NCBI RefSeq assembly: GCF_029846715.1
Contig: NZ_JARVWW010000003.1
Span: forward strand, 124,001 to 188,000
Length of the DNA: 64,000 nucleotides
Reading direction: 5' to 3'
Source: Bradyrhizobium nivariense
GTDB taxonomy: Bacteria > Pseudomonadota > Alphaproteobacteria > Rhizobiales > Xanthobacteraceae
The notes beneath the pieces were generated by a model. The model was not told the origin of the DNA. It saw only the letters and a program-made list of their open reading frames with translations, and made no database searches. Positions 4,397 to 26,547 of this stretch are shown here, in pieces. The first letter of the stretch is position 1; each line of letters starts with the position of its first letter. The translations under genes and the position numbers were made by a program.

Positions 4397-5254
4397 ATGA
4401 CATCGGCGGCTTCGGAGATTGCATCACCGGTCGGCGTGGTCGCAGGCGGCGGCGCCATGCCGTTCGCGGTCGCCGACTCGCTCGCTGCCCGCGGCATCAC
4501 ACCGGTGTTGTTTCCCCTTCGGGGAGCCTGCGATCCGGCGCGGGTGGAGAAATTCCGCCATCGCTGGATCTCGGTCGGCCAGCTCGGCCGCGCCATGCGG
4601 CTGTTTCGCGAGGAGGGCTGCCGCGACCTGATCTTCATTGGCACGCTGGTACGCCCCTCGCTCTCGGAGGTCCGGGTCGACTTCACGACGCTCCGGCTGC
4701 TCGGCAATGTCATCCGCGCCTTCCGCGGCGGCGACGATCATTTGTTGTCCGGCGTCGGGCGCATTCTCGAGCAGGGCGGCTTTCGCATGGTCGGCATCAA
4801 GGATGTTGCGCCCGACCTGCTGATGCCCGAGGGCTGCATCAGCCGCGCCTGGCCGAGCGACACCGGCAAGACCGACATCGAGCGCGGACGCGCGGTGCTG
4901 ACCGCGCTCGGTCCATTCGACATCGGCCAGGCTGCGGTCGTGATCGACGGCCATGTGGTGGCGGTCGAGGATATCGAGGGCACCGATGCGCTGCTCGCGC
5001 GCGTGGCGCGCCTGCGCGAGGAGGGCCGCATCCGCGCCGCCACCGGGCGGGGCGTACTGGTGAAGGTACCAAAGAGCGGGCAGGATTTGCGCTTCGACCT
5101 GCCGACGATCGGCCCGCGCACCCTCGAGGGCGTCGCCGCCGCAGGGCTGGCAGGCATCGCCGTCGTCGCTGGCAACACCATCGCGGCCGAGCCGCAGGCG
5201 ATGATTGCGCTCGCCGACGCAAAATACCTCTTCGTCATCGGCTTGCCGGCGTGA
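4397..5254 (+). CDS. lpxI: UDP-2,3-diacylglucosamine pyrophosphatase LpxI
   Basis: Hydrolyses UDP-2,3-diacylglucosamine to lipid X and UMP; LpxI replaces LpxH in most alphaproteobacteria. 285 residues from ATG 4397 (an alternative in-frame ATG is at 4385). N-terminal domain starts VGVVAGGGAMPFAVADS, and the central GGDDHLLSGVGRILE segment is typical of the LpxI (DUF1009) family. The C-terminal domain contains VLVKVPKSGQDLRFDLPTIG and the closing AGNTIAAEPQAMIALAD. The position between lpxA and lpxB is the standard arrangement and supports the call. The stop codon shares one base with the lpxB ATG. Confidence 0.94.
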   Translation: MTSAASEIASPVGVVAGGGAMPFAVADSLAARGITPVLFPLRGACDPARVEKFRHRWISVGQLGRAMRLFREEGCRDLIFIGTLVRPSLSEVRVDFTTLRLLGNVIRAFRGGDDHLLSGVGRILEQGGFRMVGIKDVAPDLLMPEGCISRAWPSDTGKTDIERGRAVLTALGPFDIGQAAVVIDGHVVAVEDIEGTDALLARVARLREEGRIRAATGRGVLVKVPKSGQDLRFDLPTIGPRTLEGVAAAGLAGIAVVAGNTIAAEPQAMIALADAKYLFVIGLPA

Positions 5255-6481: not shown

Positions 6482-7248
6482 TAGCCGAGGCCAGCGTCGA
6501 CCTGAAAACACTGGCGCGTGACGCGCTGGCTCTCGTCGGATGCCAGGAACAGCGCCATGTTCGCGATGTCGTCGGGCGTCACCGCATCGGGAATGGCCTG
6601 GCGCGTGCGCAGCTCGGCGATCGCCTGCTCATCCGGATACCACATCCGGCGCTGACGCTCGGTGATCACCATCCCCGGCGCTATCGCGTTGACGCGGATG
6701 CGGTCGGGACCGACCAGCCGGGCCAGGGAGTTGGTGAAGCCGACGATCGCGGCCTTTGCCGCGGCGTAGACCGGCAGCGCCGGCGCGCCGCGCATCCAGG
6801 CAATCGACGACATGTTGATGATCGAACCGCCGCCGCGTGCCTGCATCTGCGGCACCACCGCTTGCGCGGCAAAGAAGACGTGCTTGAGGTTGACGCCGAT
6901 CATCCAGTCGAACTCGGTGGGCGTCACCTCGGCCAGCACCTGACGCTGATCATTCGCGGCGTTGTTGACGAGGACCGCGGCATCGCCAAGCGATCCGTGA
7001 ACGTGCGCCATGGCGCCGCGCAAGGCGTCGATGTCGAGCAGATCGCACGGCACGAACAATGGTGCGGTCCCGGACGCGGCCTTCACCTCCGCGACCAGCG
7101 CCCGGCCGGCTGCCTCATCGAGATCCAGGAGCGCGACGCGAGCCCCCTGGGCCGCGAACGCCCGCACGAAGGCGGCACCGATGCCGCTGGCGCCACCGGT
7201 AATCAACACCACGCGATCCTTAAGACCGGCATAGCTCGTCTTTGTCAT
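6481..7248 (-). CDS. Short-chain dehydrogenase/reductase of a sugar-uptake operon
   Basis: 255 residues, classical SDR oxidoreductase. Cofactor-binding TGGASGIGAAF is near residue 18, a central NNAAN motif, the catalytic serine in the NMSSIAW segment and the catalytic YAAAK pair (Tyr/Lys) near residue 160. An acidic residue after the second strand (LLDLDE) favours NAD(H) over NADP(H). The true start is ATG 7248, which overlaps the stop of the upstream ABC ATPase gene (ATGA); the longer open frame upstream is out-of-frame ATPase sequence. As the last gene of the operon it probably oxidises the imported sugar or sugar alcohol; the substrate cannot be told from sequence. Confidence 0.9.
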   Translation of the reverse strand: MTKTSYAGLKDRVVLITGGASGIGAAFVRAFAAQGARVALLDLDEAAGRALVAEVKAASGTAPLFVPCDLLDIDALRGAMAHVHGSLGDAAVLVNNAANDQRQVLAEVTPTEFDWMIGVNLKHVFFAAQAVVPQMQARGGGSIINMSSIAWMRGAPALPVYAAAKAAIVGFTNSLARLVGPDRIRVNAIAPGMVITERQRRMWYPDEQAIAELRTRQAIPDAVTPDDIANMALFLASDESQRVTRQCFQVDAGLG

Positions 7249-8354
7249 GCGATCAGTCGCTCCGTCTCGGGGTCGAACAGGCAGATGCGGCGCGTATCGA
7301 GCGCGAAGGGGGCGGGGGCGCCAGGTGTGGGGCGGATATCCGGCGTGATGCGCGCCAGCGCAGTCTCGCCGCCAAGCCGCAGCAGCACGATGGTTTCGGC
7401 CCCGGTCGGCTCGATCATCTCCACGGGCGCGCTGACGACGATGGGCGCATCGCCGGCAAACACGCGGCTGCCCTCGGCGATGCATTCGGGCCTGATCCCG
7501 AACACCACCTCGCGGCCGACAAAGGGCGCCGCGGCGTCGTATCCTTGCAGGCGGACACGAACCTCGTCCGGCCGCCCCGCACCGATCACGACCACGGGCC
7601 CGCCGGCATCGGCCTCGAGCCGTGCCGGCATCGTGTTCATCGGCGGCGAGCCCATGAAGCGTGCCACGAACAGGTTGGCGGGATAGCGATACACGGTGTC
7701 AGGGTCGGCAAACTGCTGCACCACGCCCCGGTGCATCACGGCGATGCGCGTCGCCATTGTCATCGCCTCGATCTGGTCGTGGGTGACATAGACGATGGTG
7801 GCACCGATGCGCTGGTGCAGCCGCTTGATCTCCATCCGCATCTCGACGCGCAGCTTGGCGTCGAGATTGGAGAGCGGCTCGTCGAACAGGAAGAGCAGGG
7901 GATCGCGCACCAGCGCCCGGCCCATCGCCACGCGCTGGCGCTGGCCGCCGGACAATTGCGACGGCTTGCGGCCGAGCAGCGGCTCGATCTGGAGCAGCCG
8001 GGCCACGTTTGCCAGCGCCTTCTCCTGCTCCGCCTTGGCTACGCGTCGGCATTCCATGCCGAAGGTGATGTTCTGGCGCACCGTCATCGACGGATAGAGC
8101 GCGTAGGACTGGAACACCATGGCGATGTCGCGGTCCTTCGGTGGGATGTCGTTGACGACACGTCCGCCGATTTCCACGGTGCCTGCGCTCGGGCGGTCGA
8201 GCCCGGCGACGATGTTGAGCAGCGTGGACTTGCCGCAGCCGGATGGGCCGACCAGCACGGTGAATTCACCGCTCTCGATGTCGAGATCGATGCCCTTCAG
8301 CACCTCCAGATTGGCGTAGCGCTTGGACAGGGAGCGAATGCTTAGTGCTGCCAT
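7245..8354 (-). CDS. Sugar ABC transporter ATP-binding protein, UgpC/MalK type
   Basis: 369 residues. Walker A GPSGCGKSTLL near residue 39, signature LSGGQRQRVAMGRAL near 135, Walker B LFLFDEPLSNLD near 155 and the switch histidine in YVTHDQIEAM. The C-terminal third is the TOBE/OB regulatory region typical of CUT1 carbohydrate importers (PANLFVARFMGSPPMN). It powers the two permeases encoded immediately upstream. The start is ATG 8354, ten bases after the upstream permease stop. The substrate is not readable from the ATPase; UgpC-like and MalK-like names are both used for this family. Confidence 0.94.
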   Translation of the reverse strand: MAALSIRSLSKRYANLEVLKGIDLDIESGEFTVLVGPSGCGKSTLLNIVAGLDRPSAGTVEIGGRVVNDIPPKDRDIAMVFQSYALYPSMTVRQNITFGMECRRVAKAEQEKALANVARLLQIEPLLGRKPSQLSGGQRQRVAMGRALVRDPLLFLFDEPLSNLDAKLRVEMRMEIKRLHQRIGATIVYVTHDQIEAMTMATRIAVMHRGVVQQFADPDTVYRYPANLFVARFMGSPPMNTMPARLEADAGGPVVVIGAGRPDEVRVRLQGYDAAAPFVGREVVFGIRPECIAEGSRVFAGDAPIVVSAPVEMIEPTGAETIVLLRLGGETALARITPDIRPTPGAPAPFALDTRRICLFDPETERLIA

Positions 8355-8364
8355 GACGACCCCA

Positions 8365-9222
8365 TCATTTCACAGCCCCGGCAGTGAGGCCGCGTACGAA
8401 ATACCTGCCGCCGAGGAGATAGATCAACAAAGTGGGCAGCGCTGCGATGATCACCGCCGCGCTCTGCACGCCGTGCTGCGGGATATCTGCGATCGCGGCA
8501 GAAAGCGCAATGAGGGCGGCCGTGACGGGTTGCTGCTGGCCGGTCGTAAATGTCACGCCATAGAGGAACTCGTTCCAGATGTGCGTGAACTGCCAGATCA
8601 CGGTGACGATCAGAATCGGAGACGAGAGCGGCAGAATGATGCGCCAGAAAATACGGAAGAACCCGGCGCCATCGATGCGCGCCGCCCTGATCAGTTCGTG
8701 TGGAATGGCGACGTAGTAGTTCCGGCAGAACAGCGTGGTGAAGGAGAGCCCCTGGATCGTGTGAATCAGCACGAGACCCGTCAGCGTGTTGATGAGACCG
8801 ATGTCCCGCAGCACGATAGTCCAGGGCAGCAAGCGCATCTGCTGGGGAAGGAAGAGGCCAAGGGTCACGATGCCGTAGATCCAGCTATCGCCGCGAAAGC
8901 GCCAGAGCGACACGGCGTAACCGGCGACAGCACCGAGCAGGGTGGAGAAGATCGTCGCGGGAATCGTGACGAGTGCGGAGTTCAGCATGTACGGTCGGAT
9001 GCCGGCGCAGGTCTCGGCGACACAGAAGCCGCTCCAGGCGGTGGCGTAGTTGCCCCAGGCCCATTGTTGCGGCCAGCCGATCATCGAGGCCTGTGCGATC
9101 TCCTCGTTGGTGCGGAGCGAGTTCAGAACGACAACAACCAGTGGCGCGAGATAAGCTGCCGCGAACAACGACACGACGAGATAGATCAGGATTCGGCTCG
9201 GCGCGAAGGTTCTGTCACCCAT
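8365..9222 (-). CDS. Carbohydrate ABC transporter permease, MalG/UgpE type
   Basis: 285 residues with about six membrane spans, beginning at a hydrophobic first helix (ILIYLVVSLFAAAYLAPLVVV). The EAA loop that docks on the ATPase is present (ELIRAARIDGAGFFRIFW followed by RIILPL). The periplasmic loop after the first helix is typical of the MalG subfamily. The start is ATG 9222, eight bases inside the end of the preceding permease gene; the frame is open upstream but that part is antisense-like shadow sequence. It forms the channel together with the product of 9215-10144. Confidence 0.92.
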   Translation of the reverse strand: MGDRTFAPSRILIYLVVSLFAAAYLAPLVVVVLNSLRTNEEIAQASMIGWPQQWAWGNYATAWSGFCVAETCAGIRPYMLNSALVTIPATIFSTLLGAVAGYAVSLWRFRGDSWIYGIVTLGLFLPQQMRLLPWTIVLRDIGLINTLTGLVLIHTIQGLSFTTLFCRNYYVAIPHELIRAARIDGAGFFRIFWRIILPLSSPILIVTVIWQFTHIWNEFLYGVTFTTGQQQPVTAALIALSAAIADIPQHGVQSAAVIIAALPTLLIYLLGGRYFVRGLTAGAVK

Positions 9223-10144
9223 GGGTTGCCCGCCGCCGCTGGAAATAACGCCACGCTGCATACGGCAGCAGCACCGCGAGCAGAATGAGCAGCATGAGTA
9301 CCGCCGCCGCCGCACCTCGGCCGAGCTGGCCACGCTGGAACATGAGGTCGTAGACGACCAGAGCCGGCAGCTGCGTCGCGATTCCGGGCCCGCCATTGGT
9401 GAGCGCGCGGACGAGGTCGAAGGCCGAAATCGCGAACTGCAGCTGCACGACGACGACGGTGATGGTGATCGGCCAGAGCGTCGGCAGAATGACGCGCCAA
9501 TAGGTCCGGACCGGTCCCGCGCCGTCGATCTGCGCGGCCTTGATGATGTCGGCGTCGACGGAGCGAAGGCCGGCCAGGAACAGCGCCATGGCGAAGCCCG
9601 ACGATTGCCAGATCGCAGCGATGACGATGGTCCAGATCGCCATGTCGCGGTCGACCAGCCAGTCGAACCGGAAAGAGGTCCAGCCGAGGTCATGGACGAG
9701 CTTCTGGATCCCGATACCGGGATTGAGCAGCCAGCTCCAGACCGTGCCGGTGACGACGAACGACACCGCCAGGGGGTACAGGAAGATGGTACGCAGCACG
9801 TTCTCGCCGCGAATGCGCTGATCGAGCAGGATCGCGAGCGCGAGACCGGTGATCAAACTCAGCAGCACGAAAGCGGTGCCGAACAGCAGCAAATTGTCGA
9901 AGGCGATATGCCAGTTCCGCGACGCCATCACCGCATTGTAATTGCGCAAACCCACCCAGCCCGAGACCGGAACCAGCGTGGATGGCGTGAACGAAATCCA
10001 GATCGTCCACAGCGAAAACGAGATGAGATGCGCGGCGGACAATAGCAGCGGCACCCAGATCATCAGATACTCTGGCAGCCGGCCGACCACGCCTGATATC
10101 GCCGGCCGGCCGGGCCGCGTTGCTGTGGACGCGACGTCGGTCAA
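9215..10144 (-). CDS. Sugar ABC transporter permease, MalF/UgpA type
   Basis: 309 residues with six predicted spans (LMIWVPLLLSAAHLISFSLW first) and the EAA motif IIKAAQIDGAGPVRTYWRVI, then LPTLWPI. It pairs with the downstream MalG-type permease. The only suitable start is TTG 10144, whose TTGA overlaps the binding-protein stop by four bases, an arrangement that supports the rare start codon. Short length (no large periplasmic P2 loop) fits UgpA-like rather than enteric MalF proteins. Confidence 0.91.
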   Translation of the reverse strand: MTDVASTATRPGRPAISGVVGRLPEYLMIWVPLLLSAAHLISFSLWTIWISFTPSTLVPVSGWVGLRNYNAVMASRNWHIAFDNLLLFGTAFVLLSLITGLALAILLDQRIRGENVLRTIFLYPLAVSFVVTGTVWSWLLNPGIGIQKLVHDLGWTSFRFDWLVDRDMAIWTIVIAAIWQSSGFAMALFLAGLRSVDADIIKAAQIDGAGPVRTYWRVILPTLWPITITVVVVQLQFAISAFDLVRALTNGGPGIATQLPALVVYDLMFQRGQLGRGAAAAVLMLLILLAVLLPYAAWRYFQRRRATHG

Positions 10145-11426
10145 CGCGAACCCTCGACGGCCTCGGCGAGGCGGGTGACCGCCTGATCCGGCGTAATCGT
10201 CTTGTTCTTTACGTACTCGGTGAATACGTCGATCATCGCTGCGGTCAGGCCGTTTTCCTGCGCCATGTTGTGCGCGAGGCTCAGGACGGCCTGATTGTTG
10301 GCGACAGCGTCCTTGAGTGCGGCTGCGGTTCGCCGTTGGCCATCCGACCAGCCTTCACCGGACAGATCGACATCGGTGCGCACGGGTATCGATCCCGTGA
10401 TCTGTGAATACATGGTCTGGATCGCCGGATCCATGACGAGCTGGGCCATCAACGCCTGACCGGCCTGCAGATCGGGCTCCTTGCGCTGCCAGAAGATGAA
10501 GGCATCGGCATTCAGCAGGAACACCGGCTTGCCATTGTCGCTGGGGCCTGGCGCGATGACGAAGTCGTCGAACTTGAAACCGGCGTTGCGCAGGACGCCC
10601 TGCGCCCACCCGCCCATGATCATCATGCCCATGTCGCCGTCGACGAAGCGCTTCAAATTGGTGGCGTAGGGTTGGGCGCCGACATTGGGGTCCATCCAGT
10701 TGGTGATCTTGCGCATCTGTTCGAAGGCAGCCTTGATCTCGGGACCCTCCAGGGCCTTCTTGTCGAGGTTCATGATGGCCGCGCGATATGCGATGGGGCT
10801 GATGCCGGCGAGCGAGGCCTCGAATTTTTGCCCATCGTCGGCGCGAGTACCACCGTTGGCGACAGGAAAGGTGACCCCGCCGGCTTTCATCTTCTCAGCA
10901 AGATCGTTGAAATCAGCCCAGGTGACGGGGATCTTGTCGGCCTTAGCTTTGTCCATCGCGCGCTTGGAGAGAAACAGCATGTTGGTGCTGTAGATCTGCA
11001 ACGGCAGCGCAATCCACCTGCCCTCCGGCTTGTGCAATTTTGCAAGGTCCGGCGCGACGACCTTTTCGTAGCCGGCGGCAGCGACGACGGCGTCGAGATC
11101 GACGGTCGGGCAATCTTCGACCACGCCGCAATCTCGGGGCCCTTGAGCTGCGAACAGGCCGGCGGATCTCCGGCGATGATCTGAGCGCGCAGCTTGTTCA
11201 TCATCTCTGTGGTGAACCCGGGGACGGGCGAGTGCTGCCAGACCCCGCCTTTCTCCTCGAATTTCTTGCCAAGCGCCGTGATCGCCGCCCCGTCGCTGCC
11301 CGCGGACCATTGCGAGATCGCGGTCAGGCGCGGCTTGACTGCACCTTGCGCGCGGGCAAATGCCGGCAGTGCGAGCGCGGCCGCAGATCCAGCGAGCAGA
11401 CGGCGCCTTGTTGTGGTGATCGGCAT
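10141..11426 (-). pseudogene. Family 1 sugar-binding protein with a one-base frameshift
   Basis: Periplasmic receptor of the ABC importer, split over two frames. The first ~105 codons from ATG 11426 encode a twin-arginine-type signal (TTRRRLLAGSAAALALPAFA) and the mature N-terminus (SQWSAGSDG...GFTTEMMNKLRAQIIAGD). At about 11108-11110 the frame changes and the rest continues as ~323 good codons to 10141 (DLDAVVAAAGYEKVVAPDL...PVRTDVDLSGEGW). Restoring one C in a CCC run on the coding strand gives IAPTVDLDAV and an intact 428-residue protein of normal family length. The ribosome site gggaggaac is good. Either a real inactivating mutation or a homopolymer sequencing error; the rest of the gene looks under selection. 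Confidence 0.85.
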
Positions 11427-11483
11427 GGCAAGTTCCTCCCGGTGTGAACTCTTTCGCGCGAGAGCCGCGCGGCGTCAGGTATC

Positions 11484-12674
11484 TCAGGCGGCCTCCGTCG
11501 ATGCGGCCGGCATGCCGCCGCGGCAAGCGAGGCAGAAAGCCGCGAATGCCAACGCGGCCCGCGGATCATTGCCATTCGACGGCGGCACGAAAGCGAGCGA
11601 CACTTGCGCATGCTTGCGACCGCCCAACAGGCAGGCGTCGATCCCCTCGACGAGGGCGTTGCGATCGTCATCGGCGAGAAGCGACGGCCAGCCGCTGATC
11701 GCGACGCCCTTGCACGGCTTCACGTTCAGCGTGTTGCCGATCGCAAGGCCAAGCCGGAACAGCCGCCGGCGCAATTCCTGCCGCACGCGCGACGTGAGTG
11801 GCATCGCGGTCACCCATTCGCTGCCGAGCTGAAGCAACTCGGCTTCCGCGACGCCGAGAAGCTCGGCCAAGGCGGGAAGCGACGTATAGGCCTCGACGCA
11901 GCCATGATGACCACAGCGGCAAGTTGGTCCGTCGGCTCCGAACACCATGTGGCCGAGCTCGACCGGCTGGAGGGCATCGTCCTCGATCGGATCATCCATC
12001 CAAGCGCCCGCGACGCCCTGGCCGACGAAGACGAAGAGATGCGCGCTGCTGAATGGATAATTCTCCGTGCGGCAGCGGTGAAAGATGGCGTGCGCGACGA
12101 CCGAATTGGTGAACTCGACCGGCACGCCGGCAAACATGCCGCCGAGCATCTCGCTGATACGCCCGACGTCGCAGGGAATGATCGGATTGCTTGATGAGCC
12201 CAACCGGCCGAGGCCCGGAATGGAGATGCCGATCTGCGCGAGGGGGATGCGGCGCCGCCGCGTCCAGTCGCGCAGCAATGTCAGCGCCTCGTGAAACACC
12301 CGGCCCACGGTCGCAACGGTCGGCGTCTTCGGTAGCGGTACATGCCCGGTGTAGTGCAGCTCACCGGACAGGCCCCCAACGCCGACGCTGAGGCGCTGGG
12401 TGGTCAGCTCGAAGGCCGCGAGCGCCACCGAGCCGTCGAGCGACACGAGGCCCGTCGGGCCGCCGACATAGGGGGCAGGGCGCCGCACTTCCTCGATCAG
12501 GCCTTCGGCCTTCAGATCAAACAGGATACGCGACAGGCTCGCTTCCGACAGGCGTACGGCCTTGGCCAGCGGCGGGCGAAACGAGCCGCCCGACTGAAGC
12601 AGATGAGTCAAAATGGCAGCACGCGTCTGCCGCCGACTTCTCGGCTGCTCCGGCATTTCCATCCCTGTCGTCAT
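11484..12674 (-). CDS. ROK family transcriptional regulator
   Basis: 396 residues. N-terminal winged helix-turn-helix (residues ~12-75, RAAILTHLLQSGGSFRPPLA then SEASLSRILFDLKAEGLIEE), then a ROK sugar-kinase-like domain with the zinc motif CRCGHHGC followed by VEAYTS and a glycine-rich ISIPGLG. NagC/XylR-type ROK repressors sense a sugar and control uptake genes. It is the first gene of the operon, 57 bases upstream of the binding-protein gene, and so most likely controls it. ATG 12674 is used; another ATG lies four codons downstream. A ttacttagtgtaag palindrome directly upstream of the start may be its own operator. Confidence 0.9.
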   Translation of the reverse strand: MTTGMEMPEQPRSRRQTRAAILTHLLQSGGSFRPPLAKAVRLSEASLSRILFDLKAEGLIEEVRRPAPYVGGPTGLVSLDGSVALAAFELTTQRLSVGVGGLSGELHYTGHVPLPKTPTVATVGRVFHEALTLLRDWTRRRRIPLAQIGISIPGLGRLGSSSNPIIPCDVGRISEMLGGMFAGVPVEFTNSVVAHAIFHRCRTENYPFSSAHLFVFVGQGVAGAWMDDPIEDDALQPVELGHMVFGADGPTCRCGHHGCVEAYTSLPALAELLGVAEAELLQLGSEWVTAMPLTSRVRQELRRRLFRLGLAIGNTLNVKPCKGVAISGWPSLLADDDRNALVEGIDACLLGGRKHAQVSLAFVPPSNGNDPRAALAFAAFCLACRGGMPAASTEAA

Positions 12675-14320: not shown

Positions 14321-15748
14321 CTAACCCTTGGCCTGGTCGTCAAGCCGGCCCAGGCTTTCCTGGCGTCCCAGGATGTCCAAAACCTCGAATATGCCGGGCG
14401 ACGTCGTCCGCCCGGTCAGCGCCGCCCGCAGCGGCTGGGCGACTGCGCCCAGCTTGAGACTATTTTCCTCGGCAAAAGCGCGCAGCGCGGCTTCCGTGGC
14501 GCCGCCGCTCCACGTCTCGACTTTCTCCAGCGCGGAATGAAGCTGACCGATCAGCTTGCGGTTTTCAGGCGTCAGCAGCGCTGCCGCCTTGGGATCAAGC
14601 TGCAGCGGCCGGTCGGCGAAGATGAAACAGGCGCCGTCGATCAGCTCGATCAGCGTCTTGGCGCGCTCCTTCAGGGCCGGCATGGCCTTCAGGAGCTGCG
14701 CGCGCGTGGTGTCGTTTAACTTGGCCTTGAGCTCGTCGCGGCTGGGCACGACGTGGTCGAGCACGTCCTCGAACATCTTCACGAGTGATTGATCGTCAGC
14801 ATTGCGGATGTAATGGCCGTTGAGGTTTTCCAGCTTGGCAAAATCAAAGCGGGCGGCGGCACGGCCGACGCTGGCGAGGTCGAACGCCGCGATCATCTCC
14901 TCGGTCGAGAAGATTTCCTGGTCGCCATGGCTCCAGCCGAGCCTGACGAGGTAGTTGCGGAGCGCGGCCGGGAGGTATCCCATGGCGCGGTAGGCATCGA
15001 CGCCCAGCGCGCCATGGCGCTTCGACAGCTTTGAGCCGTCCGGGCCGTGGATCAGCGGGATGTGGGACATGCTCGGCAGCGCCCAGCCCATCGCATCGTA
15101 GATCTGCTTCTGGCGCGCCGCGTTGATCAGATGGTCGTCGCCGCGGATGACATGGGTAACGCCCATGTCGTGGTCGTCGACCACCACCGCGAGCATGTAG
15201 GTTGGGTTGCCATCGCCGCGCAGAAGCACGAGGTCGTCGAGGTTCTCGTTCTGCCAGACCACGCGGCCCTGGACCTGGTCCTCGATCACGGTCTCGCCGG
15301 TCTGCGGCGCGCGCAGCCGGATCGTCGGCTTGACGTCGTTTGGAGCCGTCGCCGGATCGCGGTCGCGCCACAGGCCATCATAGAGGCGGGTGCGCCCTTC
15401 CGCGCGCGCCTTCTCGCGCATCGCGGTGAGCTCCTCGGCGGTGGCGTAGCAGCGATAGGCCTTGCCGTCGGCGAGCAGCTGCTCGGCGACGGCACGGTGG
15501 CGGGCGGCGCGGCTGAACTGGTAGATGACGTCGCCATCCCAGCCGAGCTCCAGCCATTTCAGGCCGTCGAGGATAGCGCCGATCGCCGCCTCCGTGGAGC
15601 GCTCCCGGTCGGTGTCCTCGATCCGGAGCAGCATCTTGCCGCCGTGCTTCTTCGCATAGAGCCAGTTGAACAGCGCCGTGCGGGCGCCGCCGATATGGAG
15701 GAAGCCGGTGGGCGAGGGAGCGAAGCGGGTGACGACGGAATCGGTCAT
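14321..15748 (-). CDS. gltX: Glutamyl-tRNA synthetase
   Basis: Charges tRNA-Glu; class I synthetase, 475 residues. The HIGH motif is in [16 protein letters not shown] and the KMSKS counterpart in [12 protein letters not shown]; the anticodon-binding C-terminal domain follows (residues ~330-475). ATG 15748 opens [13 protein letters not shown]. It is divergent from glnS across 144 bases, so two closely related synthetases for glutamate and glutamine share one control region. Confidence 0.97.
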
Positions 15749-22473: not shown

Positions 22474-22567
22474 GGCCGTTACGGTTCGTTCCTGATCTGT
22501 ACCGCTATTCGCCCGCCTGCACGTTCCGGTAGCTTCGGCTTTCGTTGCGTATCGGCGGGTGCAGGGA

Positions 22568-24847
22568 ATGGCGGAGCCGGGCCGGACGGTACGGTCGCAG
22601 GGGATCGCGGGGACTTGGCCCGCGGGCCGCACCGCGTCCGCGGGCGGCCTCGCACCTGCAGGCCTCGACCTCTGGACATCGCTGGCCGAGACCCTGCGCG
22701 CGTGGCTACGCGCCGAGGCTGGCGCTGGGCGGCTGTTGCCATGGGTGCCGGTCGCCTTCGGCGGCGGCATCGCACTCTACTTTGCCGCCGATCATGAGCC
22801 GGTGCTGTGGGTCGTTGCCACGACCGCCATCGCGCTCATGCTTGGCGCGGCTCTATTGCGGCGGAGCCGGCTGTTCGCCCCGGCGCTTCTGATCGCGGCG
22901 GTCGCGGCCGGCCTTGCCGTTGCGACCTGGAAGACAGCGCGCATCGCCCACCCGGTGCTGGCAAAGCCGCTCTATTCGGTGTCGTTGTCGGGCTTCGTCG
23001 AGGCCCGCGACATCCGCGAGCGCACCGACCGTTTCGTGTTGCGCGTCACCACGATGGAGGCGCAGCGCAGCGACATCAGGCTCGAGCGCGTGCGCCTGTC
23101 GGTCCGCAAGGGCACCGCGCCGGAGGTCGGCAGCTTCGTTCAGCTGAAGGCGCGACTGATGCCGCCGCTCGCGCCGGTACGGCCCGGCAGCTACGATTTC
23201 TCCCGCGACATGTTCTTCCAGGGCATCGGTGCCTCCGGTTTTGCAATGGGCGCAATCACGGTGGCGGCGCCGCCTGAGACCGGCGGCTTGCGGCTGCGTT
23301 ACGCGGCCTTCATGCAAGGCCTGCGCGATGCGATCGACGCGCGCATCCGCGCTACGCTCGATGGCGACAATCGCGCGATCGCGACCGCGCTGCTCACGGG
23401 GCGGCGCGATGCGATCACCACGCCCGTCAACGACGCGATGTTCATCTCAGGACTCGGACACGTACTCTCGATCTCCGGCTACCACATGGCGGTGGTTGCC
23501 GGTGTCGTGTTCTTCGCGGTGCGCGCCCTGCTCGCTCTGATCCCGGGGCTGGCGGCGGGCTTCGCCATCAAGAAATGGTCGGCGGCCGCGGCGCTGGTCG
23601 CCGCTGCGTTCTACCTGCTGCTGTCAGGCGCGGAGGTCGCAACACAAAGATCGTTCTTCATGACCGCGGTGGTGCTGATCGCGGTGATGGTCGATCGCCG
23701 CGCCATCACTTTCCGCACGCTTGCCGTGGCCGCGCTGATCGTGCTGGCGGTCGCGCCGGAGGCGCTGGTGCATCCGAGTTTTCAGATGTCGTTCGCTGCG
23801 ACGCTCGGGCTCGTCGCACTGGTGCAGATCGGCATGCCGAACCTGTTCGCGTCGCCGGATCATTCGGCGACCGCGCGCATTGCAATGTGGGGCGGCCGCG
23901 AGATCGCGATGCTGTTCATGGCTTCGCTGATCGCGGGACTTGCGACCACGCCCTATGCCGCCTTCCACTTCCACCGCGTCACGCCGTTCGGCGTGCTCGC
24001 CAATCTCGGCGCGATGCCGGTGGTCTCGGCGCTGGTAATGCCGGCGGGGCTGTTAGGGCTGCTTGCGGCTCCCTTCGGGCTCGACAGCGTGTTCTGGTGG
24101 CTGATGGGGATCGGCATCGACTGGATGGTTGCGGTGTCGCGCTGGGTCGCCGCATTGCCGGGCGCGGTCGGCCATATCCCGGCTTTCGGCATTGCACCTC
24201 TGATCGCGGCGAGCCTGGGGATCATCGTGCTGGGCCTGTTGCGCACGCCGTTACGCTGGTCCGGCGCCCTGGTGCTGCTGGCTGCGATCCTCTGGGGGCT
24301 GTCGGTGCGGCAGCCCGACATTCTGATTGCCGGGGATGGCCAGAGTGTCGCGGTCCGGGGCAGGGACGGACATCTGCATCTGATCAGGGCGAGCAAGGAC
24401 GGCTTTTTGCTCAAAGAGTGGTTAGCTGCCGACGCCGATCCGCGCGATGCCGGCAGCGCCTCGCTGGCCGACGGCGTGTCTTGCGACGAAGCCGGCTGCG
24501 TGACGCCGCTCGCCGACGGCAGGCTGGTCGCGCTGGCACTGCGCATCGACGCACTGGCGGACGATTGCAGCCGGGCCGCGCTGGTGGTGACGGCACGTCC
24601 CGCGCCGCCCGATTGCGCCGCGATGGTGGTCGATCGGCAGCGGCTCGCCAGCCAGAGCGCGCTGGCGCTGACGCAGCGTGGTGACGGTTTTGCGGTTCAG
24701 GCGGTGAGGGCGAGAGGCACGAGCCGCCCCTGGTTGCCGGCCGGCGCCGGCGCAGGTGATTTCGATGGCAGTCTTGCGCCGAAGACGGCCGCGCCCCGCA
24801 CCCGGGACGCAACGCCGGCGGAGACCGACTTGCAGGCCGAGGATTGA
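22568..24847 (+). CDS. comEC: ComEC/Rec2 family competence-type membrane protein
   Basis: About 759 residues. Residues ~50-110 hold membrane helices, followed by the DUF4131 region (ARDIRERTDRFVLRV...GTAPEVGSFVQLKARL) and the Competence domain (FISGLGHVLSISGYHMAVVA, LLSGAEVATQRSFFMTAVVL, HPSFQMSFAATLGLVAL). ComEC forms the inner-membrane channel for incoming single-stranded DNA. The C-terminal ~180 residues sit where other ComEC proteins carry a metallo-beta-lactamase domain, but no HxHxDH motif is visible. Start uncertain: ATG 22568 or GTG 22559. It is head-on to the lexA-side genes; comEC close to gltX and lexA is usual in relatives. Confidence 0.92.
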   Translation: MAEPGRTVRSQGIAGTWPAGRTASAGGLAPAGLDLWTSLAETLRAWLRAEAGAGRLLPWVPVAFGGGIALYFAADHEPVLWVVATTAIALMLGAALLRRSRLFAPALLIAAVAAGLAVATWKTARIAHPVLAKPLYSVSLSGFVEARDIRERTDRFVLRVTTMEAQRSDIRLERVRLSVRKGTAPEVGSFVQLKARLMPPLAPVRPGSYDFSRDMFFQGIGASGFAMGAITVAAPPETGGLRLRYAAFMQGLRDAIDARIRATLDGDNRAIATALLTGRRDAITTPVNDAMFISGLGHVLSISGYHMAVVAGVVFFAVRALLALIPGLAAGFAIKKWSAAAALVAAAFYLLLSGAEVATQRSFFMTAVVLIAVMVDRRAITFRTLAVAALIVLAVAPEALVHPSFQMSFAATLGLVALVQIGMPNLFASPDHSATARIAMWGGREIAMLFMASLIAGLATTPYAAFHFHRVTPFGVLANLGAMPVVSALVMPAGLLGLLAAPFGLDSVFWWLMGIGIDWMVAVSRWVAALPGAVGHIPAFGIAPLIAASLGIIVLGLLRTPLRWSGALVLLAAILWGLSVRQPDILIAGDGQSVAVRGRDGHLHLIRASKDGFLLKEWLAADADPRDAGSASLADGVSCDEAGCVTPLADGRLVALALRIDALADDCSRAALVVTARPAPPDCAAMVVDRQRLASQSALALTQRGDGFAVQAVRARGTSRPWLPAGAGAGDFDGSLAPKTAAPRTRDATPAETDLQAED

Positions 24848-24945: not shown

Positions 24946-25887
24946 CTAGAGATACCAGGCCAGCACGGCGTCGAGCCCGGAATTGCCGATGACCGGCAGG
25001 GCCACCATCCGGCTCAGTCCGGATGCGCGGGCCTCAAGGCCGGCGACCGAGCCGTCATGCGCGAGCTCATCGTTGAGCGCGGGCATGCCGGTGGCCCAGG
25101 CCCCGCCGATGCTGCCTTCGCCCCTGGCGATGGATTTCGTCGCATAGAGCGCGGCAAGGTCGGTCTGCGCACTGCAATCGCCGGCGCGAAACACCAGCGC
25201 CGAGCGGATCTGGTTCGGGACCCAGATCTCGAAGCGTCGCGCAATCGGCGTGGCCTGCGCCGAGAGGAATGTCAGGACCCAGGTCTGGTCCGTGCCGGTC
25301 CGATAGGGCACGCCCACGCCGAGATTGATCCCGACCTTGGCCGCGTCCTCCCAGCGCAGGAAGCTCCTGGCGTCGTGCAGGTCCTTGATGATCAGCGGCA
25401 GGCCCGCCTTCCAGGTGCGTCCAGGCAGGCCAAAGCCGCGAGGAAATTTGGTGTGGCGAGAGTTGAACTCGAACATATCGGCGGTGCCGTAATAGCCGTC
25501 GACGAGCCCCATCTCGTGGGAGACATCAGGGTCGTTGTGCCAGAGCTCGATCGCGCCGACATGCGCTTTGCCGTCGCCGCAGAACAGCACGATGACGGCC
25601 TGGAGGAATTCGCCTGCAAACACCGGTACCGCGACGCCGCAGGTGAGGCCGGCTACGAGCGCCTGATCGGTCCGTTTGAAATAGGAATTGGCGAATCTGG
25701 TGAGGATTTCGGGGTGGCCCGAGGCCCAGGCCTTGCCCGGAAGTCCCTCGTCATATCCGAAGTGCAACTCTTCGCTGACGGCCTTGAACGCGGACAGCCC
25801 TTCGCCGTAGAGGCCGCCACCAAATTCCAGCCGCATGCGCGTCCGGTCGGGTACCCAGAGTTCAACGACGCGAAGGAAGGTTTTCAT
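24946..25887 (-). CDS. Protein made of three tandem GAF-like domains
   Basis: 313 residues from ATG 25887, no signal peptide and no output domain. Three homologous units cover the whole chain: residues ~7-110, 112-217 and 218-313. Each starts with an (E/I)LW or EIW strand (VVELWVPD, AIELWHND, RFEIWVPN), carries a GLPGKAW / GLPGRTW / GSIGGAW motif followed by xxGxP, and ends in a hydrophobic hairpin (CGVAVPVFAG, LGVGVPYRTG, MVALPVIGN). The motif tryptophans are residues 54, 159 and 264, exactly 105 apart. The GxxGxxWxxGxP pattern is that of GAF sensor domains. It may bind a small ligand or another protein; no function is known to me. Longer in-frame starts upstream look non-coding. Confidence 0.8.
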   Translation of the reverse strand: MKTFLRVVELWVPDRTRMRLEFGGGLYGEGLSAFKAVSEELHFGYDEGLPGKAWASGHPEILTRFANSYFKRTDQALVAGLTCGVAVPVFAGEFLQAVIVLFCGDGKAHVGAIELWHNDPDVSHEMGLVDGYYGTADMFEFNSRHTKFPRGFGLPGRTWKAGLPLIIKDLHDARSFLRWEDAAKVGINLGVGVPYRTGTDQTWVLTFLSAQATPIARRFEIWVPNQIRSALVFRAGDCSAQTDLAALYATKSIARGEGSIGGAWATGMPALNDELAHDGSVAGLEARASGLSRMVALPVIGNSGLDAVLAWYL

Positions 25888-26112
25888 CGAGCGTGTCCGC
25901 CGTCTCAAGCCCTTGACAGCATCGGTCATTTGGCTGCGAAGCGGACGTTCATAATTCAGGCAGGGCGGCTCAAACTTCGTGCTGCGCAGAGGCGCAGCGG
26001 CTTGATCAATCCGATCGGATTTCGCTGGACGCGACCGCACCATCTCGCCGGCCACGGCCGGCGATGGCAATTCAATCCTGGCCTCCAACCTCTCGGCCGG
26101 AGGGCGGCTGTG

Positions 26113-26547
26113 TCAGCCGATCGGCAGGCGGGTGACCGTCGGCTGCCTGTCGGCGATGATCTCCGGCTTGTGCTCGCGATCAGTGACCGGCTGGGTCACC
26201 GGCAGTTGCAGCACGGTTGCCTGCTGGCCCTCGACGAGCTGAGTCACCAGCACGTATTTGCCGTCGGGGAATTCAATCGCGTCATGATGGCGGTCGGGAA
26301 TGTGCGGATCGATCTTGCCGAACTTGCCGACGCGGGAATTGATGGTACGCGTCCAGATCCAGCGATTGTCGTAGCGGACGTTGTCGGTGAAGGCGAGCTC
26401 CGTTCCCGGCAGCAGGCAGACGGCCACGGTCGGATCGGCTGCGGACGCAAAACCACGCGTCGAGGTGCCGCGGAAGCTTGTCGTGACGATCGTCTCGCCG
26501 ACTTCGGCGGGACGCGACGCGACGGCATGCAGGCTGTAGTCACACAT
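26113..26547 (-). CDS. Conserved hypothetical protein, 144 residues
   Basis: ATG 26547 with aggagc seven bases upstream; begins MCDYSLHAVASRPAEVGET. The central part is rich in charged and aromatic residues (DNRWIWTRTINSRVGKFG, HHDAIEFPDGKYVLVTQL), suggesting a small beta-rich soluble fold. No signal peptide or membrane helix. I recognise it only as a type of short protein common in Bradyrhizobium; no domain or reaction can be named. Confidence 0.75.
   Translation of the reverse strand: MCDYSLHAVASRPAEVGETIVTTSFRGTSTRGFASAADPTVAVCLLPGTELAFTDNVRYDNRWIWTRTINSRVGKFGKIDPHIPDRHHDAIEFPDGKYVLVTQLVEGQQATVLQLPVTQPVTDREHKPEIIADRQPTVTRLPIG

Follow-up and report, generated by a model that had tools for sequence, protein, structure and literature searches.

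Distant full-length relatives of a Bradyrhizobium protein built of three GAF units belong to nitrate-assimilation (nas) operons, of which the gene, here given the working name GAF3, is a recurrent, optional member. The starting point was a window of 64,000 nucleotides of Bradyrhizobium nivariense DNA, i.e., the whole stretch that was analysed. Described nas systems, as far as the passages seen extend, comprise NasS-NasT control, transporters, and two reductases, and among the matches listed, the titles, abstracts, and passages of open-licence papers contain no description of a GAF gene in nas operons. That several families place such an optional GAF-only gene between nrtC and nirB hints at a sensor or helper that has yet to be studied, and GAF3 probably serves nitrate use in one of these roles. 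This provides a lead on function for a gene annotated in the records of its relatives just as 'GAF domain-containing protein' or as hypothetical. If GAF3 binds nitrate or nitrite, the idea developed for NreA of Staphylococcus would extend to assimilation, and plant nitrate sensing could be compared with a bacterial counterpart.

The gene and its three units are located as follows.

24946..25887, minus strand: GAF3 gene (working name), 313 aa with three GAF-like units; the coordinates include the stop codon.
25573..25887, minus strand: GAF unit 1 (aa 1-105), with GLPGKAW, FKR, and C103; the most conserved unit, with model strands and helices at residues 5-104.
25258..25572, minus strand: GAF unit 2 (aa 106-210), with GLPGRTW and FLR; the lowest single-unit profile score.
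24949..25257, minus strand: GAF unit 3 (aa 211-313); the fastest evolving unit, with W264 not conserved outside the Bradyrhizobium group.

A longer mechanical open reading frame at this place (380 aa, TTG start) begins further upstream; the 313-aa start was chosen over it because M1 is invariant in alignment A1, which joins the window protein with 51 of 62 close relatives. The first-pass annotation had described three GAF-like units spaced exactly 105 residues apart, each opened by an ELW/EIW strand. The GLPGKAW, GLPGRTW, and GSIGGAW motifs recur as claimed, with the GxxGxxW tryptophans at W54, W159, and W264 and xxGxP after each, and the openings were found as VELW, IELW, and FEIW starting at residues 8, 113, and 219. 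When the protein was shuffled, at least one GxxGxxW...GxP motif occurred in 15 of 20,000 shuffles. Self-comparison places the alignments of units 1 and 2 (score 88; best of 2000 shuffles, 54) and of units 1 and 3 (score 92; best of 2000 shuffles, 58) far above chance, and that of units 2 and 3 is weak (score 44, reached by 9 of 2000 shuffles); repetition is clear between unit 1 and each of the other two and marginal between units 2 and 3. In A1, whose 52 rows include the window protein, 41 rows keep the exact spacing, and the second interval is 103, 104, or 110 in the other 11. In relatives beyond the Bradyrhizobium group, the first interval ranges over 102-106 and the tryptophan is missing from the third motif; the exact 105 is therefore a trait of the lineage, not a structural rule.

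The reading of the window protein as three GAF units is supported by its GAF_2 score, a three-domain model, and structural matches, and neither outcome that the first-pass annotation had named as refuting it was observed. The whole protein scores 51.4 bits against Pfam GAF_2 (PF13185; gathering score 28.6), with three stretches counted at the loose limit of E 10 and one passing E 0.01. Each third also matches GAF_2 by itself, in every case below the gathering score: 24.1 bits (E 4.6e-5) for unit 1, 14.8 bits (E 0.034) for unit 2, and 19.1 bits (E 0.0016) for unit 3. The plant family bHLH-MYC_N is the second Pfam family in the window protein (33.4 bits), and NCBIfam has no family for it. An AlphaFold2 model built from 52 aligned sequences (mean pLDDT 81.2, pTM 0.86) contains three separate GAF-like sets of strands and helices, i.e., three domains and not one single domain; the pLDDT is below 50 at residues 122-147 and 172-176 of unit 2, and the isolated unit 2 gives no usable prediction (pLDDT 38), which speaks neither for nor against a GAF fold there. 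Among the best 50 matches each from Foldseek and VIA-align 2, most carry titles of GAF or GAF-like proteins; they include a cyclase tandem GAF, plant EGL3/MYC3, fRMsr, NreA, and Nlh1/2, and the matches to GAF structures span model residues 1-300. The scores do not single out any one of these as the nearest; among solved chains, Nlh1 (profile E 0.00065) and EGL1 (0.0017) come closest in sequence.

An output domain was found in GAF3 neither by Pfam nor in the AlphaFold2 model, as the first-pass annotation had proposed in suggesting that the three units fill the protein. The 22 non-Bradyrhizobium proteins (36-51% identical to the window protein) measure 306-320 aa and carry no added domains; the GAF-only architecture is therefore a family trait. 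Gene fusion was considered on account of open frames of up to 1210 aa around the relatives and was rejected, since the start nearest the alignment gives 306-320 aa; this nearest-start rule found no start codon in locus L104. Across the family, all 25 rows keep E9, W11, G48, G51, W54, P59, R72, P88, E114, and W116, and likewise G153, G156, W159, G186, P194, E220, W222, P269, and P298, with R178 kept in 24 and C103 in 23 of the 25 proteins. W264 is kept in three of the 25, all of the Bradyrhizobium group, and in none of the 22 relatives outside it, and the third unit had no GAF match in the three relatives tested by thirds. The three units are thus clearest in Bradyrhizobium, and elsewhere the protein has two clear units and a diverged third.

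With a profile of the close set, homologues were found in 16 of 296 genomes of a family sample (12 of the same genus), in 1 of 289 genomes of a class sample (the own genome alone), and in 11 of 398 genomes of a phylum sample (seven of the same genus); a wider profile found 24 among 397 genomes of an order sample (eight of the same genus). Furthermore, a plasmid search revealed GAF3 in records of Ponticoccus alexandrii, Haematobacter massiliensis, and a Comamonadaceae bacterium, and a fourth plasmid record gave a partial GAF match only. Markers from the annotated Ponticoccus nas operon were then searched in the 22 non-Bradyrhizobium loci, and GAF3 lies inside a nas cluster in 19 of them. In 18 of those 19, the gene order is nrtC (nitrate-transporter ATPase), GAF3, and nirB (nitrite reductase), with nasT and nasS ahead of nrtA in 12 of the 18. 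The linkage is shown by three named, annotated records. In Ponticoccus, the start of GAF3 overlaps the stop of nrtC by one base, as expected for co-translated genes, and in L106 the two genes are ~1.1 kb apart with small ORFs between them. On the Comamonadaceae plasmid, GAF3 follows nirB, nirD, a molybdopterin oxidoreductase, and cobA. The exceptions are L104, in which GAF3 is convergent, and hence not co-transcribed, with an operon of cyanase and a nitrate-type ABC transporter; L133, in which GAF3 stands outside a nas operon and tail-to-tail with a molybdopterin oxidoreductase (7113-9467); and L138, which has no nas neighbours. Near GAF3 in L133, an ORF at 14511-14972 was named MoaE-like by eye. 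In L136, the nirB adjoining GAF3 (10783-12021) looks shortened and runs into nasA, with no nirD match. Cyanase-like genes occur within nas operons in L105 (3295-3762), L106 (3240-3695), and L146 (412-849), which suggests a possible joint use of nitrate and cyanate.

The window gene lies outside a nas cluster according to the marker search, and its neighbours are the following.

22559..24847, plus strand: ComEC-type competence protein, the convergent downstream neighbour; Pfam Competence 204 bits.
26116..26547, minus strand: 144-aa ORF (MCDYSLHAV...), the upstream neighbour on the same strand; it recurs in 31 loci that have the comEC-lexA-moeA context.

In Bradyrhizobium, GAF3 is unlinked to nas and patchily kept. 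The own genome holds one clear copy (both weaker matches listed exceed E 0.1), a contig scan gave 62 loci (58 named Bradyrhizobium, 63-95% identical), and 17 of 36 genomes of a same-genus sample carry the gene (16 full length, one truncated). Two main contexts are found, one with comEC, the 144-aa ORF (which has no Pfam match at E 0.01), lexA, and moeA, and a second with other neighbours; the comEC, lexA, and moeA clusters are common to 32 of the 62 loci, and L075, L082, and L083 carry GAF3 elsewhere than in both. The marker search found no nasT, nasS, nrtA, nirB, nirD, nasA, cysG, or cynS in 64 Bradyrhizobium-type loci, a set consisting of the 62 loci and of 20 kb around each of two further copies, the window gene and the gene of genome G075. 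In L056, L062, and L065, an ABC transporter set 33-42% identical to NrtB and NrtC adjoins GAF3.

The patchy distribution, the missing nas markers, and broken or truncated copies (L078, L081, L084, L019, and L021) are what would be expected if GAF3 in Bradyrhizobium were a relic with no present role. The gene is split by about 1 kb in L081 (5001-7039, Bradyrhizobium barranii subsp. apii), the match in L078 is broken into two pieces that overlap, as a frameshift would cause, and the matches in L084 and L019 stop near residue 213. Such a relic is nevertheless very improbable: the dN/dS of GAF3 against nine Bradyrhizobium relatives is 0.15-0.23, which demonstrates purifying selection, most copies have full-length frames, and both of two different contexts retain an upstream block. 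Unit 3 has the highest dN/dS (0.28-0.37). In a 35-row tree, whose midpoint root is arbitrary and several of whose branches are long, nas-linked proteins stand on both sides of the midpoint and the Bradyrhizobium group lies beside L104; an old link to nas with a later exit from the operon in Bradyrhizobium would fit this pattern, which does not prove it.

The optional status of GAF3 was evident from eight nirB loci of GAF3-free genomes, hand-picked mostly for high NirB identity. Five of them (L142, L144, L146, L147, and L149) join nrtC directly to nirB, which makes GAF3 optional in the nas operon; of the other three, two show no nrt genes within the stretch, and in the third the transporter arrangement is different. 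Outside Bradyrhizobium, full NirB is found in 12 of the 16 genomes with GAF3 and in 123 of the 366 that lack it (one-sided Fisher p 0.001, in a test that ignores phylogeny and in which seven of the 16 GAF3 genomes are one genus); most NirB genomes are consequently without GAF3. In the order-level test, genome G1200 was scored as NirB-negative, though a shortened nirB adjoins its GAF3. Within Bradyrhizobium, the corresponding counts are 8 of 17 vs 3 of 19 (one-sided p 0.047, confounded by two clades), full-length NirB being missing in 9 of the 17 GAF3 genomes. Co-occurrence with NasA was discarded as a link to GAF3 in Bradyrhizobium because it is uninformative, NasA being present whether or not GAF3 is: all 36 genomes match at E 1e-30, 35 of them strongly (about 48-69% identity) and G030 at about 31%. 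The window genome has no full-length NirB; its NasA-type reductase lies on another contig and is preceded by a 422-aa frame like the N-terminal part of NirB. According to passages of PMC4724949, B. japonicum has a NasC-Flp-NirA system, with nasC and nirA at separate loci under NasS-NasT. By analogy, we infer that the NasA gene and the 422-aa frame of the window genome resemble this arrangement.

The place of GAF3 before nirB in 18 loci and its architecture without an output domain are also compatible with a scaffold, a chaperone, or an allosteric subunit of NirB (or of the molybdenum enzyme NasA) in place of an anion sensor, and the tail-to-tail molybdopterin oxidoreductase of L133 and the moeA near GAF3 in the window context would agree with such a role. 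We regard it as unlikely, because the five otherwise similar operons that dispense with GAF3 indicate that NirB does not as a rule depend on it, L104 combines GAF3 with cyanase and a transporter and has no NirB or NasA match of nas type, the Bradyrhizobium genomes with GAF3 so often have no full-length NirB, and strong NasA-type matches occur there irrespective of GAF3.

The preferred reading, which is held tentatively and at somewhat less than even confidence, is that GAF3 is a soluble, cytoplasmic, NreA-like receptor for nitrate, nitrite, or a related small anion. GAF3 would be part of the pathway for nitrate and nitrite assimilation, and perhaps for cyanate use too. A small nitrogen oxyanion or a pathway product would bind one or both of the conserved first two GAF units and change the shape of the protein, which would then make a protein-protein contact with a partner from the same operon; unit 3 would be mainly structural. 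Having GAF units and no output domain, GAF3 must act via binding partners, and its position between nrtC and nirB suggests NasS/NasT, the NrtC transporter ATPase, or NirB as candidates, comparable to the action of NreA on NreB. The nas and cyanase neighbours suggest small-anion ligands, and R72 and R178, in units 1 and 2, could form an anion site. The three-unit architecture without an output domain, the genomic linkage, the optional presence, and the selection are observed; the ligand, the partner, and the direction of control are inferred. In Bradyrhizobium, the gene stands apart from the nas operon and is maintained by purifying selection, with an upstream block of its own.

The evidence for this receptor is the linkage to nas in 19 of 22 loci, the cyanase and transporter operon beside GAF3 in L104 and the cyanase inside the nas operons of L105 and L106, the co-occurrence with NirB, the linkage on both sides of the tree, the low dN/dS, the matches to GAF folds including fRMsr, plant MYC/EGL3, NreA, and Nlh, the GAF domain of plant NLP proteins with the disputed nitrate binding of NLP7, the match of the Comamonadaceae relative to GAF_NLP, and the conserved R72 and R178. 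Against it stand the facts that NreA is not the preferred structural match and was not found by sequence, that GAF_NLP is matched by 3 of 25 members, that the 64 Bradyrhizobium-type loci have no nas markers, and that 9 of 17 Bradyrhizobium genomes with GAF3 have no full NirB. Furthermore, FxR residues occur also in L098, a multi-domain general sensor protein, so the FxR pattern is not specific to nitrate. The term GAF is absent from the main text of a NasT regulon study of B. diazoefficiens (PMC6759348).

NreA (PDB 4iuk and 6k2h) resembles GAF3 in being a soluble GAF-only protein in a nitrogen-oxyanion context and is among the structural matches, at a Z of 10.6 vs about 13 for fRMsr and plant MYC. 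It differs in having a single unit, against three in the 313 aa of GAF3, and in working with the NreBC two-component system in nitrate respiration. Neither phmmer nor a profile matched NreA in the PDB sequence search. In three loci inspected for a histidine kinase, the annotation of L139 and L140 shows none in the stretches covered, and L141 has one ~7 kb from GAF3. NreA without nitrate binds NreB and inhibits its kinase activity, as stated in passages of PMC8139620; passages of PMC8199190 are also cited on the supporting side of the receptor.

The GAF domain of plant NLP proteins (Pfam GAF_NLP) belongs to nitrate signalling, a role of the kind proposed for GAF3. The Comamonadaceae relative scores 27.8 bits as a whole protein against a cut-off of 24.1, and its matching unit alone scores 23.3 bits, just under that cut-off; the window protein has no match, and at E 0.01 GAF_NLP is matched by 3 and bHLH-MYC_N by 23 of the 25 members. 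Passages of PMC9310391 describe plant NLP proteins as containing a GAF domain together with RWP-RK and PB1 domains, whereas neither RWP-RK nor PB1 matches the window protein or is among the five families that the 25 members yield at E 0.01. NLP7 is said by others to bind nitrate, and its role as a specific receptor is doubted in the passages seen of an opinion paper (PMC9731675). The GAF_NLP match may reflect just a shared GLPG-W subfamily. Somewhat unlikely is the bolder proposal of a tandem triple-GAF receptor class that senses nitrate, nitrite, or cyanate in assimilatory operons, in which two units able to bind a ligand and a third that is degenerate and structural, of a GAF type related to plant NLP nitrate sensing, would add a second layer of control to NasS-NasT.

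Other known systems are alike in fold. The N-terminal domain of plant bHLH-MYC proteins (PF14215) has a GAF-like fold and the GLPG-W region, with EGL3 and MYC3 near the top of the structural matches, but it is a transcription-factor domain that binds proteins (JAZ and MYB, according to structure titles), and GAF3 has no bHLH part. The GAF domains of Nlh1/Nlh2 from Aquifex are the best solved-structure match by sequence, although these proteins are named transcriptional regulators in the PDB and the match covers one unit only. fRMsr is likewise a soluble GAF-only protein, level with MYC3 as the top structural match (Z 13.1 to 3rfb), yet it has a single unit and is an enzyme, and the likeness is one of fold only. 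The tandem GAFs of cyclases and phosphodiesterases (1ykd and 1mc0) share the tandem units and give the best Foldseek E-value, whereas their unit arrangement does not superpose on that of GAF3 (rmsd 19-26 A). Such tandem GAFs regulate enzymes whose output domain is catalytic, and a domain of that kind is present neither in GAF3 nor in the 22 extracted relatives. These likenesses leave room for a general GAF sensor or redox protein, acting through a cyclic nucleotide, reactive nitrogen species, or the conserved C103, that is carried in nas operons by chance: the cyclic-nucleotide protein 1ykd is the best Foldseek match (19 A rmsd over both units), the stand-alone GAF enzyme fRMsr is level with MYC3 at the top of the second structural comparison, C103 is kept in 23 of 25 proteins, and nitric oxide is, in passages of PMC4724949, a by-product of nitrate assimilation in Bradyrhizobium. 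We consider such a general sensor rather unlikely, since linkage to the operon in several families argues for a role in the pathway.

Upstream of the window gene, one further feature was recognized.

25957..25982, minus strand: block GCACGAAGTTTGAGC..CTGCCTG, 70-95 nt before the start codon.

Most of 31 aligned Bradyrhizobium leaders, drawn from two unrelated contexts, have a similar block. Its exact pattern, with a variable spacer, occurs once in the genome, and the block is a possible promoter or operator. A search for a sigma-54 promoter in the 313 bases upstream gave no hit with up to three mismatches, and Rfam gave one sub-threshold match on the leader, on the opposite strand. A shared, covarying RNA hairpin ahead of the start codon had been suspected by eye and was rejected, because the consensus fold of 26 leaders (L050, L051, L057, L069, and L079 of the 31 being left out) consists of three pairs at -0.97 kcal/mol. 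The leaders of the window (z -0.82, 36 of 200 shuffles as good) and of L051 (z -0.05, 86 of 200) fold like shuffled sequences, and an RNA structure common to all leaders is not supported. Leaders of a second clade fold better than their shuffles, in L056 at 4930-5010 with a z of -4.13 (0 of 200 as good) and in L068 at 4930-5010 with a z of -2.95 (1 of 200), and a hairpin is possible in this one clade.
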